37,309 nt of DNA from Deltaproteobacteria bacterium (lineage in GTDB: Bacteria > Desulfobacterota > Dissulfuribacteria > Dissulfuribacterales > UBA3076), in contig JAGYNZ010000027.1 in the NCBI GenBank assembly GCA_018399745.1, positions 1-37,309 on the forward strand, given 5' to 3'. Numbering within the stretch: the stretch's first letter is position 1; the number at the start of each line of letters is the position of its first letter. Position numbers and translations under genes: made by a program. The notes beneath the pieces were generated by a model. That model was not told the DNA's origin. It saw only the letters and a program-made list of their open reading frames with translations, and did not search any database. Of this stretch, positions 20,704 through 28,733 are shown in pieces.

Positions 20704-23700
20704 TTATTGTTCCTTCCAGGAAGTTTTTCCAGCCTTGGTCATCCCCGGATTCGCCTGCTCTATACCGATGATTGCTCCTGTACTTGTTTGTACAAAGGCC
20801 TTGGAGCCTGCCTCTCTTCCGGTATGTATATTGGCGGTCTCCGAGTAGCCCTTCCCGATATCAATTTTTGAAACTACCTTGTTGGTGACCGGATCTACAC
20901 CTGTCCCATTGTTGCCGTCTGTCTTTAATACACCCTTCCAATAGGCAGTACCTGTTTTATAGTATAGACCATAGAGATAACTTCTCCCCTCATAAGCACA
21001 TAAATCATTATTGGGCACAAAGGTGGTAAAGGTGACAATATCTCCCAAAACAGCCGCCTGGCCCAGGTTTCTTTCACCGGTCTCGTCAAAATTAAGATAC
21101 CATCCATCTTTGGCCTGTACTTCGGCAACGAGATCAGAAAAATCTATATTCCCGTCTCCGTTTTGGTCGCTTACAGCGGTCCCATGAAGAGGATTTGAGG
21201 TATTTAGCGAAAGGGTGTTGTAATCCTCTATTTCTATGCCGGTTACATTTCTCAGGTAGCTCTCTTTGGCGCCAACCTCCGCGTCGGTCAAAGTGCCGTT
21301 TGCGTCCACGGGCTCCTTAATGCCGTAAAATGTGTTCTGATAACCCATATAAGGCGATTGGCGATCCAGTGAACTCCAAAACCTTCCTGTCCCGAAATAG
21401 ACCCAGATTCTTCCTTCGTCATCTCTGGCCACTGAAACAGCCGTGTTAATGTGCTGATGATCATCGCCGGTGCTGTTCGGATTGAAAAATAAGCTCTTTG
21501 TCCAGTTATTGGGATTTTCATCTTCGTTGGTCTTTATCCTAAAGACCTGACCCTCCAGTCAGGCCCCGCACCCGTCAGAGGCGATGTAAATCGCCTCCCC
21601 TGTCCATAAGAGATCTCCATTGCCATCAACCGTGGTAGCCAAATCAAAATCCACCGCTATTGGATCAGCCAGGAACGAATGGCCATCACCGGGAAATTCC
21701 CTGGCCAGAGTCCCGTCATCGGCATTCAGGATATACAGGCTGGCCGTGCGGTTGCTGCCGCCGTACTCGGTAAGATTGACACCGTCATCTTTACGTGTAG
21801 CCTCATAATCGACCGGTCCGGAACCAATGACGACAAACCACTTGCTTCCGACCCTTATGGGTGTGGGATAGGCAGTGGTAAAGCCCAGATTGTCTTCACT
21901 GAAAGTCCAGAGTAACTTGGGGGCTACCTCCGGATTGGTAACATCAAGGGCAAAATAAGTAGATCGGAAATGGAGGTCACACGTACCGTCAGGCGCGGGA
22001 TCGCCATTGACGTCAGTAGTGGTATCCACACCGATATCCTTTCCGCCAAGCCTCATTCCGCCGATCAGAACCGTCCCCCAGCCTCCGGGATGGTCATCAT
22101 CCAGAGGGGTTACCCCATCCTGCTGGTAAAATATCCTTGCATCAAATATCCGGGGTTTCAGGTCAACATAATAGACATGGGTATTGTAACTTGATAATTT
22201 CGTGAGCCATTTGAGATGAGACAGCAGGGCGTTTGGTACGTAAGCCCATAATTCTGAGCCTAATGCATAATCTGTATAGCTGGTGTCAGGTATAAAGGAT
22301 GAGGAATTGCTGTCCCATATATTTGGTTGGCTATTGAATTTGTGTTCTTTAGCATCGTAAAAACCGCTGTTGAAGGCATGGAACATACCGTCATTTGCTC
22401 CCACGTAGACAACAATCCTGCGATTAAGGTATTTTTTCCTGAAAACCCTGTAGGAACCATCTCTATAGAGCAGGTCATAGTTTTCTGATGGTTTTGAAAC
22501 CACAGTGGGAGTAGAGTAAATAATATCGCCTATACGATAAACCGTATCGTTGCCATCAATATTCAATGTACGGTTACGATACACCCTTCCGGTGCCTGTT
22601 TCGCTCAAGCCCTCTTCTCCCCGGATAAAGCATATGATCTTTTGGGCCTCGGCGATCATTTCATCTTCTGTAAGACCGATTGCCGGAGTGACTGGGTCAC
22701 TGTCATGGTCGTATGTCAAGTAAGGGTTAAGAAAATAATAGTTGTCATGACTAGGATCGTTTACAAAATCAGGGGTAAAGGGCATGGTTTGAGTATTATT
22801 TACATTATCAATGGAAACATTATCACTGGTGTTTATATAGTCGGTGAATATGTAACGCTTACCATCGTTTGAGCCATAATTCCTCTGGGTAAGCACGTCC
22901 ATGCCGGGATCGGAGAGTCCGGAAAGTGCGTCCCATACAAAGTTAATTTCGGTGATCTTACATTCATCTACAAATGTCTCTGTTTCGGACGTTGAATTGT
23001 AGCCGTATCTCCTGGCCTTACCAGTTTCGCCTTCAAATTCTATGATGTAATCGGCGTCTGGATCAAGGGTGTCATTTTCATTAGTATCTTCACGCATGTT
23101 GCCGTAATCATCCACAAACAGTGAGTGAGTATTGCCGACCCAAAGGGCGGTCTTGCCCTCGTCGTCCCCCAGCTCGGGGAAGAATATAGATTGATATATT
23201 GCTCCCTCTCCAGACCGTGAGCTTGAGATAACAGAGGCGGCGCTGCCTGATGACACCCTGTTGAGCATCTCGGCAAAAGACCTGTTAAGCTGTTCTTCCA
23301 GTTCCAGCGGGTTCGTTACGTAAAAATAGGTATCAGGCACACCGTCTGCGTCGTTATCCCATTCGCTTTCAAGGTCAGGAATATCGTTATTGTTTCTGTC
23401 CTCAAAACCTCCCCATTTAGCGGCATACCACAGGGGATTTTCCAGTAATGTGGCCGCGGGGCTGTCTCCCGGAGTAAAGGTCCTTGTGGTGTTAAGAGGC
23501 AGGGCGCCACCGTCATTCCATGTCCCTCCGGGCCCTTGTCCTGGAGGCGTGTCCAGGAAATAGTCAGGATCAGAACCTGATGAAGTGTCGTAGTCTCTGA
23601 CTTCCAGATATGTCCCATCGGCCGTAGTGCCTGAGATAATATAGCCTATGTGTTGTATTATAGAACCAGCTGAATACAGGGAGTTAAGCGTTATGTCGAC

Positions 23701-26148
23701 AGATGTGCCGTTCACCTGATATTCATACTCAACAATGGCATCCATATCATGGTCGGCCCCCTGCTCCACGTCCTCGAAATTGATTCGGAATGTCCCGGCA
23801 GTCGCATTTATGCTCTCTACAAAGAAATCTACTATAGTGTTTGTGGGCTGGAAATCTCCTTCAGTAGCTGAAATGCCGTAGTTGCCGACTGATTTGGCAA
23901 AGGGAACCAGTGTTATCGTTTTATTGTCATCACCCACCGGGATATTGATATTAATCCTTGGCAGAGGGGAGGCCAGGCCGACGGCATAGGTATCCACACT
24001 TTGGCTGCCGTTCGCGTCGCTTAAATCCTCCTTGTGTCCAAAATGGGCGACACTGGCCGCGTAATAGCTTCCCTGTTTGGTAGGCTCCTCAGGGCAGAGA
24101 CCGCGAACACCCCCGAAACCGGTTATGTCTTTTTCGCTGCAGGTACCGTCATAATTGGAATCACTCTGGCCGATAAAATGCGAACCGGCATCGTTCTCTT
24201 CGGTGCATAAGGTATTTGCCAGATCATTTACATCCAATCCGGTTAAATCTCCTGTAAAAGAGCCGAAATAGCTGCCAGGCAATTGGTCTGAATCATATGT
24301 GGGATTTATATCGGACAGGACAAGCATAAAGGGCTTGGCACAATAGAAAAAACCGCTACTCGAATCGTAGGGATCCTGCCATGTCGGTTTGGGCAGTCCC
24401 AGAGTCACATCATCACCCGAGGAGTAATCAAAGTCAGGAGTTGCCGCACCCTTGCCGGCGAAATAACGCATGCCTTCGTACATCATCTCCCCGACAGGAT
24501 TTCCCCACATACGGCATTCACCTTCATTTATGGGCCTGGTAGTTATCCAGCCGCAGTTTTGATTATAGGAATGACTGCCGTAATCAAAGCCGATGACCCT
24601 CAGGGCATCGATGGTCTTTATAATACCGTTTGTTGAGGTAACCTGTCCTGTGTTTGGGTCAATTTCATCTGTGATAGAGCTGATGTTCTTTCTCAACACG
24701 CCGCCGGACGTGTTTTTTGAATACGATCCTGTTATAAGGCCGAAATACATCCTGTCCAATTCGCCGTGCCTCTGAAGTATGCCGACCGGTTTATAGACTC
24801 CAGAAGGATACATCTTTGCGTTGCTCTCAGGCATGGATGGATCGCACACCTTTACCCTGACATGATAGTCTGTCAGTGTCGCCGTTGAGGGAACAGACTC
24901 TGTCGTTTCCATCATCTCTATCTCAGTGATTTGAACACACCAGTAACCCCCGCAATCGTTATTAATCATGTCCTTCTTTTCTGTTATATAGAGTCGATAA
25001 TAAGTGTAGCTTTCTGACGGAGGACTGTCACAGATAAATTCTTTTTTTGTTTTTCTGGCTACCGGAAGTGCGCCATCCTCGACGGTGTCGATATCGGTCC
25101 AGAGCATTCCATCGTTCGACGCCTGCAGCTTCCAGGCCTTCGGATCTCTGCCTTCTGCATCATTTCCGGTGGTGATAGTATACTTTAGGATCTCTCTCGG
25201 AGAATTAAATTGAAATTGTATCCATATATCCTGCCATGCAGATGACGTTGAAGCACCCCAAGTGAGCCATTTCGTATTTATGGAATCATCAAATGCCTTG
25301 GGTGACTCCTCTGCACTCGGACAGCCAAATCCGGCATCAGTTATTGTTCCTGCAGACCCGCCTTCGGTTACATCAAAACCACTCGCACTGCCATTATCCG
25401 TAACCAGAGGACCGGTTTGCCCATTTATCACTCTGTCTCCTGCAACCGGTACCTCACATGCCACCCAATCCCAGATTCTGTAAACACTGTCTTCAAGTAC
25501 CCTAAGAAGAGGATCTCCTGCCTCGGAAAGAGTGGTATTCACAAAAAGATGTCTTGTCGCCCCGGTTGGTCCAGAAGGTAAATCTAGAGGGGTATATTCT
25601 CTGATGTCGTATCCATCCCTTTCGATACTCTCGTATTCCTTGCCCCAGCTATGGGCGTCCTGAGGGATGTAGCACCTTTCCAACACCGTTTCAGTCGACG
25701 TATCGACAGCACGATGACCTCCATATAGTACCTTTCTGAGACAGTCCATCCTGGACATGCTGAGATAATTTAGAAAATCGCCGCTCCATTCGTCGGCTGC
25801 TGAACACTTTTTGTCTGCAGTAATGGTGGTTGGTTCAAACCGGCTATTTACACTACTGTATACATAGCACTTGTGGGAATCAAAATATCCATAATAATCT
25901 ATGTCCGGATTATATCCTACGTCTAATACACCGTCTCCATTGAGATCTGATGCATCGTTATAGGCCTCATAATATAATTTATGATTTCTGCCCATTACCA
26001 GCATTACGAGAGGAGGAACACCCGCAGATACAAATGGTGGCACGGCTTGATACTCACTGTCAGTAGATGCCATTGACCCGGAAGGGCCAAGAGGTCCTGA
26101 TGCAAAAAGTAACCCTAGTGATATAAAGACTGTACAAAATTTTCTCAT
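20704..26148 (-). CDS. pilY1: PilY1-like pilus tip protein; in-frame TGA probably read as selenocysteine
   Basis: This type IV pilus tip/adhesion protein has about 1814 residues if the TGA at 21561-21559 (codon 1530) is read through. It starts with a signal peptide (MRKFCTVFISLGLLFASGPLG) after AGGA. Residues of about 270-410 resemble an inserted F5/8 type C (discoidin) domain. From about 1205 to the end is the PilY1 beta-propeller, which carries IIYSTPTVV, VVYVGANDGMFHAF, GSELWAYVPNALL, and after the TGA EGRIWVYFGTGRFW. Several D-x-N-G-D-G loops look calcium-binding. Reading across the TGA is in frame with no other stop: IASDGCGA-U-LEGQVFRIKT. A stem-loop of SECIS type follows. A nonsense mutation is the alternative. 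Confidence 0.88.
21529..21558 (-). promoter_or_regulatory. candidate bacterial SECIS element in pilY1
   Basis: Right after the in-frame TGA (21561-21559) an 11-nt spacer is followed by GGTCTTTA, loop GGA, TAAAGACC: a perfect 8-bp stem with a loop that begins with G. The first loop base is the 20th after TGA. Bacterial SECIS elements lie within the coding region just behind UGA, with a short stem and a G at the start of the loop at roughly 16-37 nt. Folding software and homologues have not been checked. Confidence 0.65.
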
Positions 26149-26289: not shown

Positions 26290-26850
26290 TTACATGACAT
26301 GTCTCCATTGAAGCAATATGACGGCCTCACTGTTCACCTCTCCGACATGTTGTGACCATATGTCATAGACCACCCAGCTCCCACCCCCTGCGGCCGATTT
26401 ACCCTTGCCTTCATATCCGGCCGCCATTTGGATGGCACCGCCAGTTGACAAACCGGTATTTCCCCCGATGGTCAAATTGGTATGAGGCTCATCTCCCGTA
26501 TAATCCTTTGGGAAGTAAGCATCTCTATTACCATCAGAAGGCGAAGTAGATACGGTGTTAAGATATAGATTGGGATTGGTCGCGTTGACTTCTCCGAGTT
26601 TTTCAAGGTCAGTTGAATCAAAACCGGCAAGACTGATATTCTGCTCAACGAGTTCAATCCCGACCTCAGTTCCTCCATCTGCCTGATTGAATGCCATCTT
26701 TTGTGCCTTATCATTTCCAGATATAATGAGCTCTAATGTGCTAGTATTCGTTGCCACTATTCCTATAATAGTAAGAAGAAGTAAAATCAGTACTGCTAGA
26801 ACTAAAGTAGAACCTCTTTCATTATTTGCCATATATAAGATATATTTCAT
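26290..26850 (-). CDS. pilX: PilX-like minor pilin/assembly protein
   Basis: This 186-residue protein has a short leader and a hydrophobic N-terminus, MANNERGSTLVLAVLILLLLTIIGI, then VATNTSTLELIISGNDKAQKMAF. That is the PilX N-terminal domain, in which G-STL replaces the classical prepilin GFTLIE. It presumably primes pilus assembly with PilV, PilW and PilY1. The start at 26850 (MKYILY) has AAGGA 7 nt upstream and is preferred to the internal ATG at 26832. It lies between pilV and pilY1 in the usual order. Confidence 0.85.
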   Translation of the reverse strand: MKYILYMANNERGSTLVLAVLILLLLTIIGIVATNTSTLELIISGNDKAQKMAFNQADGGTEVGIELVEQNISLAGFDSTDLEKLGEVNATNPNLYLNTVSTSPSDGNRDAYFPKDYTGDEPHTNLTIGGNTGLSTGGAIQMAAGYEGKGKSAAGGGSWVVYDIWSQHVGEVNSEAVILLQWRHVM

Positions 26851-26881: not shown

Positions 26882-27319
26882 TTATATAATATCCGCCTTC
26901 ATAGAAGTAAGAGATACTTTTTTTCCTGCTTCTTTATCTGACCAGGTAACAATTATCCTTATCTCTTTGGTATTATCTATGTAATGATCAGGAGCTATAT
27001 TCCAAAAGATACTGTACCTACCATCAATGACACTGTGATCTGCTGTTGTTGCATTTGCACTATCTATTCCGGCATGACCATTGCCATTCGTATCATCTAA
27101 TAATGGATCAGCATAAGAAAGACATATCAGCCCTTCCATTTTATCTTGGGCCAATGTAGTTGCTTCGGTAATACCACTTGCAAAGAAATTAGCATTTATG
27201 GCCGTCATCTGCATTTTACCCACAGCGAGTATCCCGACGGCAAATACAGTCACTGCTATCAATATTTCAATAAGGCTAAAGCCCTTCTCATTATTTATAT
27301 TGAATTTCATTTCAATCAT
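26882..27319 (-). CDS. pilV: PilV-like minor prepilin
   Basis: This type IV prepilin has the cleavage/methylation motif KGFSLIEILIAVTVFAVGILAVGKMQ, cut by PilD between G and F. The ATG at 27319 (MIEMKFNINNEKG) overlaps the pilW stop as ATGA and has GGGA just upstream, so it is chosen over the longer start at 27337. Length is about 145 residues, normal for PilV. The C-terminal half has no cysteine pair of note. It is part of the fimT-pilW-pilV-pilX-pilY1 run. Confidence 0.88.
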   Translation of the reverse strand: MIEMKFNINNEKGFSLIEILIAVTVFAVGILAVGKMQMTAINANFFASGITEATTLAQDKMEGLICLSYADPLLDDTNGNGHAGIDSANATTADHSVIDGRYSIFWNIAPDHYIDNTKEIRIIVTWSDKEAGKKVSLTSMKADII

Positions 27320-28179
27320 AGTCCCATGTTTCTGCATCGTACATTTGTTATAAGAAGCCTCATGCGCAGGTTATTATTTGGTGTTATTACTTTATTCCCG
27401 ACTGTATAAGTCTTGGTATTAAGAAAGCTGTTGTCCCCGTATTCAGTCCTTGCGAGCAGCCAGATGCGCACGGCTCGAATATCCTGGATAGAAACAGGCG
27501 TTATCGCGGTCCCGTTTATAAGGCCGTTTCCGCCGAGCCCTGGACCGTCATTCTCATCAATCTCGCCATCACCGTTGGTATCCAGATTTCTATCCAGGAA
27601 ATTATCGCCATCTGAATCAACCGCCCAGATGACTTGATCGTCTCCACCAACATCATAGGTATCCAAAATACCGTCTCCATCCGTATCGAAGGCGTATGCA
27701 AAACCAAGGGCCTCTATATTTTCTGCTACTAATTGCCTGCCTCCACCACTGTTTCTGCCCAAGTCAGTTATTCCGTCGGGGGAACCAACAGGAGAGTCAT
27801 ATACACAGTAGTAAATGGTCTCGCCGCTACTCACTGTACCGTTGTCATCGAGATCGGCCGTGAATTCAAAGGAACCATTACCGGTAATAGTGACATTAAT
27901 ATTATCGTCTTTGTCCCTTGGGCTGATATCAGTTATTCCAAATCCTGGGGCACCGCGTGAATACCCTGCCATTCTGATATCCCTGGCCATGATATCCAGT
28001 GCCGCCCTGAGATTCTGTTGCATTTCAGAGACCTGCTCCTGGGCAAGATAGCTCTTTTGCTGAGACAGAAATGCCGTGAATATAGCGCCGGCAATGATAC
28101 CGGAGACGGCCATGGCAATAAGAAGTTCAATCAGGGTAAAACCACTTGTTTTGCTCATTTTATTATCATCTAACATCAT
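27316..28179 (-). CDS. pilW: PilW-like minor prepilin
   Basis: This 287-residue protein has the prepilin motif SGFTLIELLIAMAVSGIIAGAIFTAF. The globular domain carries three calcium-loop-like stretches: DTDGDGILD, DSDGDNFLD and DTNGDGEIDEND. These are acidic repeats more often seen in dockerin/EF-hand loops, suggesting metal-stabilised tip assembly. ATGs at 28179 and 28176 (MM) overlap the fimT stop, giving coupling. PilW belongs to the minor-pilin complex that carries PilY1. Confidence 0.88.
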   Translation of the reverse strand: MMLDDNKMSKTSGFTLIELLIAMAVSGIIAGAIFTAFLSQQKSYLAQEQVSEMQQNLRAALDIMARDIRMAGYSRGAPGFGITDISPRDKDDNINVTITGNGSFEFTADLDDNGTVSSGETIYYCVYDSPVGSPDGITDLGRNSGGGRQLVAENIEALGFAYAFDTDGDGILDTYDVGGDDQVIWAVDSDGDNFLDRNLDTNGDGEIDENDGPGLGGNGLINGTAITPVSIQDIRAVRIWLLARTEYGDNSFLNTKTYTVGNKVITPNNNLRMRLLITNVRCRNMGL

Positions 28180-28733
28180 TTCCAGTTACTCGCGCTAAAT
28201 GGAAGCTCGCCATTATATTTTCGTAATTTTATTGATCCGCTTGATCTTCCGGTTATTGCATAGCAAATATCATGATTTTTATTCTGGATATAAACGGTTC
28301 CCGTGTTAGACGTACCTCTGCTATTAAAAGTTATAGAACCGGCTTGCGTACAATTATCTCCATCCCAATTTAGTGCCGCATTACCGTTCCCGTAATCAAC
28401 GCCGCTCCCATAAGCAGAAAAGTCGATTCTATTCTCTCCGGCTGTGTAGGCATTATTATTATCAGTATCAAAATAATAAAATCCCGGATTTGTGCCGGCA
28501 TCAAACATCATAACAATATCTCCATTCTCTTTAACAGCCTGCATCCTGGCTTTCTGCATATTTGAGAACAGATCCCTCGCCGCAGACTTCAGTCTGTAAT
28601 TGGGCAACCAATTGATGATGCTGGGTACTGCGATGGCAGACAGAATGGCTATGATGACTATGACGATCATTAGCTCCGCCATGGTAAATCCAGCCTGTCT
28701 ACGGCAACGGATTTTGCGACAAAAGCCTTGCAT
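28176..28733 (-). CDS. fimT: FimT/GspH-type minor prepilin
   Basis: The 185-residue protein has the prepilin motif AGFTMAELMIVIVIIAILSAIAVPS. The region after it, NYRLKSAARDLFSNMQKARMQAVKENGDIVM, is the FimT/GspH family signature. A DTDNNN region and a Cys pair (GDNCTQAG and HDICYA) follow. It is the first gene of the minor-pilin operon. The leader MQGFCRKIRCRRQ is short and basic. Only a weak AGAAGA lies before the ATG. A sigma-54-like promoter lies about 145 bp upstream. Confidence 0.88.
   Translation of the reverse strand: MQGFCRKIRCRRQAGFTMAELMIVIVIIAILSAIAVPSIINWLPNYRLKSAARDLFSNMQKARMQAVKENGDIVMMFDAGTNPGFYYFDTDNNNAYTAGENRIDFSAYGSGVDYGNGNAALNWDGDNCTQAGSITFNSRGTSNTGTVYIQNKNHDICYAITGRSSGSIKLRKYNGELPFSASNWK

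Follow-up and report, generated by a model that had tools for sequence, protein, structure and literature searches.

Candidate selenocysteine codon in pilY1

The 37,309-nucleotide (nt) stretch analysed here, referred to as the window, is contig JAGYNZ010000027.1 of assembly GCA_018399745.1, from a deltaproteobacterium of the GTDB genus UBA3076. It carries pilY1, a gene whose product, the type IV pilus tip protein PilY1, is very probably a selenoprotein. The reading frame holds one in-frame TGA, at codon 1530, where selenocysteine (Sec) would very probably be inserted by SelB, because the TGA and the hairpin behind it are conserved, the codons downstream are under constraint, the genome has the full Sec machinery, and its SelD and FdhA genes possess similar hairpins. 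The coordinates of all features are collected in Table 1.

Translation of the minus strand from 26148 to 20704 gives 1529 codons, the sole TGA, and 284 further open codons up to a TAA stop, as the first-pass annotation of this DNA had claimed. The product starts with a signal-like segment, carries an F5/8 type C domain in its N-terminal part (residues 281-390), and matches PF05567 (T4P_PilY1) with 45.4 bits against a cutoff of 28.1. Its PilY1 beta-propeller domain spans residues 1206-1612 and is split by TGA1530. Two other claims of that annotation, that the end of the propeller lies beyond the TGA and that the codon belongs to a Cys-x-x-Sec arrangement, were also sustained: TGA1530 falls within the conserved beta-propeller, the surrounding protein sequence is ...IASDGCGA-U-LEGQVFRIKT..., and the motif G-C-G-[A/G]-U recurs in four genomes. 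Cys1717 of the product is a conserved residue.

Downstream hairpin

Separated from the TGA by 11 nt is a perfect 8-bp stem, GGTCTTTA/TAAAGACC, with a GGA loop whose first G is base 20 after the TGA; the hairpin, at 21547..21529, was found to have the form described for it. It had also been placed within the range of bacterial selenocysteine insertion sequence (bSECIS) elements, and it does lie within every published limit, these being a loop of 3-9 nt, a stem of 4-16 bp, a G in the first two loop positions, a spacing of 16-37 nt and a minimum free energy of at most -7.5 kcal/mol (PMC13188914). When folded, the 45-nt stretch of the window with the hairpin gave -13.3 kcal/mol (z = -3.4). As a measure of chance, perfect stems of 8 bp and above that have a G-bearing loop and the same spacing occur at 0.12-0.18% of window positions, and in the nine other long frames of the window that are split by TGA no stem exceeds 4 bp.

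Selenocysteine machinery and other selenoproteins

The first-pass annotation had made its reading depend on selA, selB, selC and selD, all four of which are present. SelA, SelB and SelD are encoded in the same genome as pilY1, as is a tRNA-Sec with a UCA anticodon (74.5 bits); SelB was detected in every genome of the genus tested. SelD has an in-frame TGA of its own, followed by the hairpin TCCAGG-GGA-CCTGGA, whose first loop G is nt 21. The formate dehydrogenase alpha subunit (FdhA) reads DHCARL-U-HAP at its in-frame TGA, with a hairpin loop of GGTCT. Both genes share with pilY1 the in-frame TGA and a hairpin loop starting with G about 20 nt downstream, but they specify enzymes of selenium and formate metabolism, whereas the pilY1 product is a surface adhesin. 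In position the pilY1 loop also matches the loop of the E. coli fdhF element. Reassignment of TGA throughout the genome was considered and rejected, since TGA is the stop of 12 of the 23 open reading frames (ORFs) checked in the window, where it terminates neighbouring genes in the ordinary manner.

Conservation within the genus

A search of 60 relatives revealed the same TGA in all three genomes of the genus that have a close orthologue (G002, G006 and G007), whose PilY1 proteins are 73-79% identical to that of the window over the main matched stretches. Together with the genome of the window (G000), these make up the four-genome alignment used below. All four read GCG[A/G]-TGA, the 19-nt hairpin is identical in 4/4, and the pairwise synonymous divergence (dS) of pilY1 is approximately 0.4-1.5. 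The hairpin codons (GTC TTT AGG ATA AAG ACC) are the only unchanged block among 502 six-codon windows of the alignment. The ratio of nonsynonymous to synonymous divergence (dN/dS) over all codons is 0.10-0.31 downstream of the TGA versus 0.10-0.28 upstream of it. For the first 63 codons past the TGA it is 0.10-0.23 in five of the six pairs; the value for the remaining pair, G002 and G007, is 0.93, calculated from 47 codons in which synonymous changes are very few. The four genomes have no start codon in common before codon +119.

The site in more distant homologues

In the nearest outgroup sequence (L095; 60% identity over the site region) the corresponding residues are SDG-S-QG-E, with GAA (Glu) in the place of the TGA, Ser in the place of Cys1527, and no hairpin. 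Cys1527 is invariant in 5/5 close sequences. Since L095 lacks all three, Cys1527, Sec1530 and the hairpin appear to go together; the hairpin is retained with the TGA in the relatives and missing from the nearest homologue without Sec, as the earlier reading would have it.

In a set of 41 distinct PilY1 homologue loops, no member outside the group has Sec or Cys at precisely this place, and because no Cys homologue was found there, the Sec seems to have come about without any Cys predecessor that could be detected. Two distant PilY1 loops do contain Cys pairs with other spacing in the same propeller turn (ICTGTTAVC in L106 and QCTANC in L079), an indication that this turn tolerates a disulfide-like link elsewhere; these pairs are possibly the disulfide counterparts of the Cys-Sec pair. 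No further TGA-bearing PilY1 was recovered from outside the genus in an order-wide profile search of 46 genomes, nor among the matches listed in a phylum-wide profile search of 395 genomes. A scan of genome contigs returned four loci only, and a scan of viral contigs none.

Observations opposing the assignment

Several observations weigh against the identification of PilY1 as a selenoprotein. The absence of a Cys homologue at the Sec position among the 41 loops is unusual for selenoproteins. The hairpin stem is invariant among the relatives and so shows no covariation. The minimum-energy folds of the relatives are only mildly better than those of shuffled sequences (z -0.6 to -1.9), with a neighbouring helix competing against the best fold of G006. 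AlphaFold2 modelling of the propeller with four sequences yielded a predicted local distance difference test (pLDDT) score of 29 and a predicted template modelling (pTM) score of 0.21, so that the structural placement described below is drawn from sequence alignment only. No PilY1 was found in three of the eight genomes of the genus (G001, G004 and G005, which are 87-96% complete), and G003 has distant copies only, in contrast to the description of PilY1 as conserved across Seep-SRB2 (PMC10553843). Finally, contig L058 possesses GGA (Gly) instead of TGA, with the Cys and the hairpin intact. Every genome of the genus with a close orthologue carries TGA, and not Trp or Arg, at codon 1530, with the Gly of L058 as a qualification.

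Contig L058 sits in a metagenome-assembled genome of 'Ca. Syntrophoarchaeum', where it is presumably contamination by the bacterial partner. Either Sec is dispensable in some relative or the contig is flawed. The best tree puts L058 inside the TGA-bearing group with weak support, a basal position having p = 0.052 in the approximately unbiased (AU) test, and the Gly reflects either a recent loss of the Sec, a stage preceding its gain, or a fault of the contig. As a separate observation, the N-terminal half of its PilY1 (L058:2283-5864) is only 28-40% identical to that of the window, and the stretch before the site is much closer; this pattern suggests an exchange of adhesin modules.

Aligned position of the putative Cys-Sec pair in the propeller

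The only solved relative found is PilY1 of Pseudomonas aeruginosa (3HX6). In the profile alignment to this structure (E 1.6e-26) the Cys-x-x-Sec loop corresponds to a short turn (AGD-LQGN in 3HX6) directly past LADNNSDGVAD, which carries Dx[DN]xDGxxD, the pattern described for the PilY1 calcium loop. The calcium-loop region of the window protein was aligned (VDFDLATTVDGNGD), a short insertion interrupting the pattern. On this alignment Cys1527 and Sec1530 would be located in a beta-hairpin turn following the calcium loop of the propeller. The window protein resembles 3HX6 and PilY1.1 of Myxococcus xanthus in its C-terminal propeller and its minor-pilin cluster, with the calcium-loop region aligned but interrupted as stated; it differs from them in the putative UGA recoding, the N-terminal F5/8 type C domain and the Cys-x-x-Sec turn, the 3HX6 turn having no Cys.

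Proposed role and alternative explanations

We propose that at UGA1530 SelB, carrying Sec-tRNA(UCA), would bind the GGA-loop hairpin 11 nt downstream, and that selenocysteine would be inserted to give a protein of 1814 residues; otherwise a 1529-residue form without the propeller end would be released. Because of its signal-like N-terminus and the minor-pilin/PilY1 cluster, the protein would be exported to the pilus tip, a location which homology makes quite probable. There, Cys1527 and Sec1530 may form a reversible selenenylsulfide or bind a soft metal, such that the redox state would tune how the tip folds, binds calcium or adheres. We regard this as the most likely use of the pair, and put it forward tentatively. 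Redox control of PilY1 is plausible by analogy, since calcium binding by M. xanthus PilY1 is stimulated by a low-potential cytochrome (PMC8833165) and surface sensing in P. aeruginosa involves Cys152, a cysteine of the PilY1 VWA domain (PMC8806160). Cys152 and the window site are both thiol or selenol sites of PilY1; the former, linked to surface sensing, is a cysteine in the N-terminal VWA domain, whereas the latter is a putative selenocysteine in the propeller.

FWG174_SeepSRB2 (G007, locus L057) is assigned to Seep-SRB2 ('Desulfomithrium gen. nov.'), which is GTDB genus UBA3076 in the order Dissulfuribacterales, and is counted with the partners of anaerobic methanotrophic (ANME) archaea (PMC10553843). 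The window comes from a sulfate-reducing bacterium of this genus. For such electron-exchanging partners of methane-oxidising archaea, a redox-active Cys-Sec pair at the pilus tip might make attachment, or the chemistry of contact, depend on both redox state and selenium, though we consider this rather unlikely.

Two other explanations concern the purpose of the Sec, and their probabilities are not exclusive of its identification. In one, the codon would serve as a selenium-dependent expression switch, working full-length PilY1 being made only with selenium and SelB, and the chemistry of the residue mattering little. The truncated form would lack the propeller end and L058 manages with Gly, both of which fit a switch, but the invariant Cys three residues upstream, gained with the Sec, suggests that the residue itself matters, and we judge a switch improbable. 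We are equally reserved about the second, in which the Cys-Sec pair would take part in electron transfer between the bacterium and its archaeal partner or in metal contact between them. Syntrophy with methanotrophic archaea, in which it accepts electrons, has been described for the genus, PilY1 of Seep-SRB2 is highly expressed with ANME-2c (PMC10553843), and a multihaem cytochrome (ExtKL) and an MtrB/PioB-type barrel have both been catalogued in selenoprotein form (PMC13188914); however, neither a haem motif nor one for another cofactor was identified around the site, and in the species studied PilY1 is an adhesin and priming protein.

The remaining explanations dispense with Sec altogether. 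Programmed or leaky readthrough of UGA by a near-cognate tRNA, with Trp, Arg or another residue inserted and the hairpin acting as a stimulator rather than as a SelB site, would accord with the C that follows the TGA in all four genomes (UGA-C) and with the ordinary residue in L058. It is nevertheless very improbable, given that SelD and FdhA of this genome carry in-frame TGA codons with hairpins alike in form and spacing, that the pilY1 hairpin satisfies the bSECIS model, and that the invariant Cys three residues before the TGA is missing from the homologue without it. Hardly conceivable is a division into two proteins, in which PilY1 stops at codon 1529, the remaining 284 codons being started internally or left untranslated following a recent nonsense mutation or an assembly error: gene finders would split the gene in this way (there is a GTG-started ORF at 20704..21432), but the same TGA in four assemblies excludes an assembly error, a possibility raised at the outset, and its presence in four species at dS up to 1.5, the purifying selection directly past it, the lack of a shared start and the interrupted propeller rule out a nonsense mutation of recent date and, for practical purposes, a second gene with its own start.

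Relation to known selenoproteins

Neither PilY1 nor any other pilus protein is present in the 2026 inventory of 119 prokaryotic selenoprotein families (PMC13188914) or among the deep-Sep candidates, and NCBIfam has no matching family. In the paper describing Seep-SRB2 the string 'selen' occurs in the reference list only (PMC10553843), and no paper describing a PilY1 selenoprotein was found in the literature searched. The selenoproteins of the CxxU type (GrdA, SelW-like, AhpD-like, and the TonB-dependent receptor of the FCYxU type) likewise combine a UGA and a bSECIS-type hairpin with a Cys three residues before the Sec; they have other folds, whereas the window protein is a beta-propeller pilus-tip protein with no Cys homologue found at the Sec position. 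It would constitute both a selenoprotein family and a PilY1 variant that are new, so far from one genus only. If the assignment is true, no selenoprotein had been reported before it in a pilus or as an adhesin of the pilus tip, according to the literature searched, and Cys1527/Sec1530 would offer selenium and redox state a specific pair of residues for acting on attachment between cells.

Standard gene finding would end PilY1 at the UGA, and PilY1 may therefore have entered published comparisons of adhesins in ANME consortia in truncated form. Homology-based selenoprotein searches with Cys homologues as a requirement would also miss pilY1, because our survey contains no Cys counterpart at the Sec position.

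Neighbouring genes and other features

The pilY1 gene comes after four minor pilin genes, in the order GspH/FimT, PilW, N-methylated pilin and PilX.

Table 1. Features of the window, and two further selenoprotein genes of the same genome
Feature	Position	Strand	Remarks
pilY1	26148..20704	minus	1814 codons when TGA1530 is read through; stop TAA
In-frame TGA, codon 1530, read as selenocysteine (putative)	21559..21561	minus	TGA in four species
TGC, Cys1527	21568..21570	minus	first residue of the Cys-x-x-Sec motif
SECIS-like hairpin GGTCTTTA-GGA-TAAAGACC	21529..21547	minus	stem from nt 12 after TGA, apical G at nt 20
Upstream inverted repeat GAGGCGAT-TTAC-ATCGCCTC	21578..21597	minus	ends 16 nt before TGA
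PilX-type minor pilin	26290..26850	minus	PF14341
Minor pilin with N-methylation motif (PilV position)	26882..27337	minus	PF07963
PilW minor pilin	27316..28179	minus	PF16074 and PF07963
FimT/GspH-type minor pilin	28176..28733	minus	PF12019 and PF07963
SelD selenoprotein gene	G000:C2:62587-63513		own in-frame TGA
FdhA selenoprotein gene	G000:C45:29726-31819		about 22 kb from selB

The inverted repeat upstream of the TGA, GAGGCGAT-TTAC-ATCGCCTC, is perfect in the window and kept in 5/5 close sequences, with one G.U pair in G002. It is absent from the outgroup L095 and lies outside the bSECIS model.

The G002 copy of pilY1 (L011/L037, G002:C12 about 65815-67637) is broken near residue 576 by transposase-like sequence and 764 N, which reflects either an insertion element or a scaffolding fault. 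The F5/8 type C (discoidin-like) domain of the window protein is a possible carbohydrate-binding module for contact with the partner.

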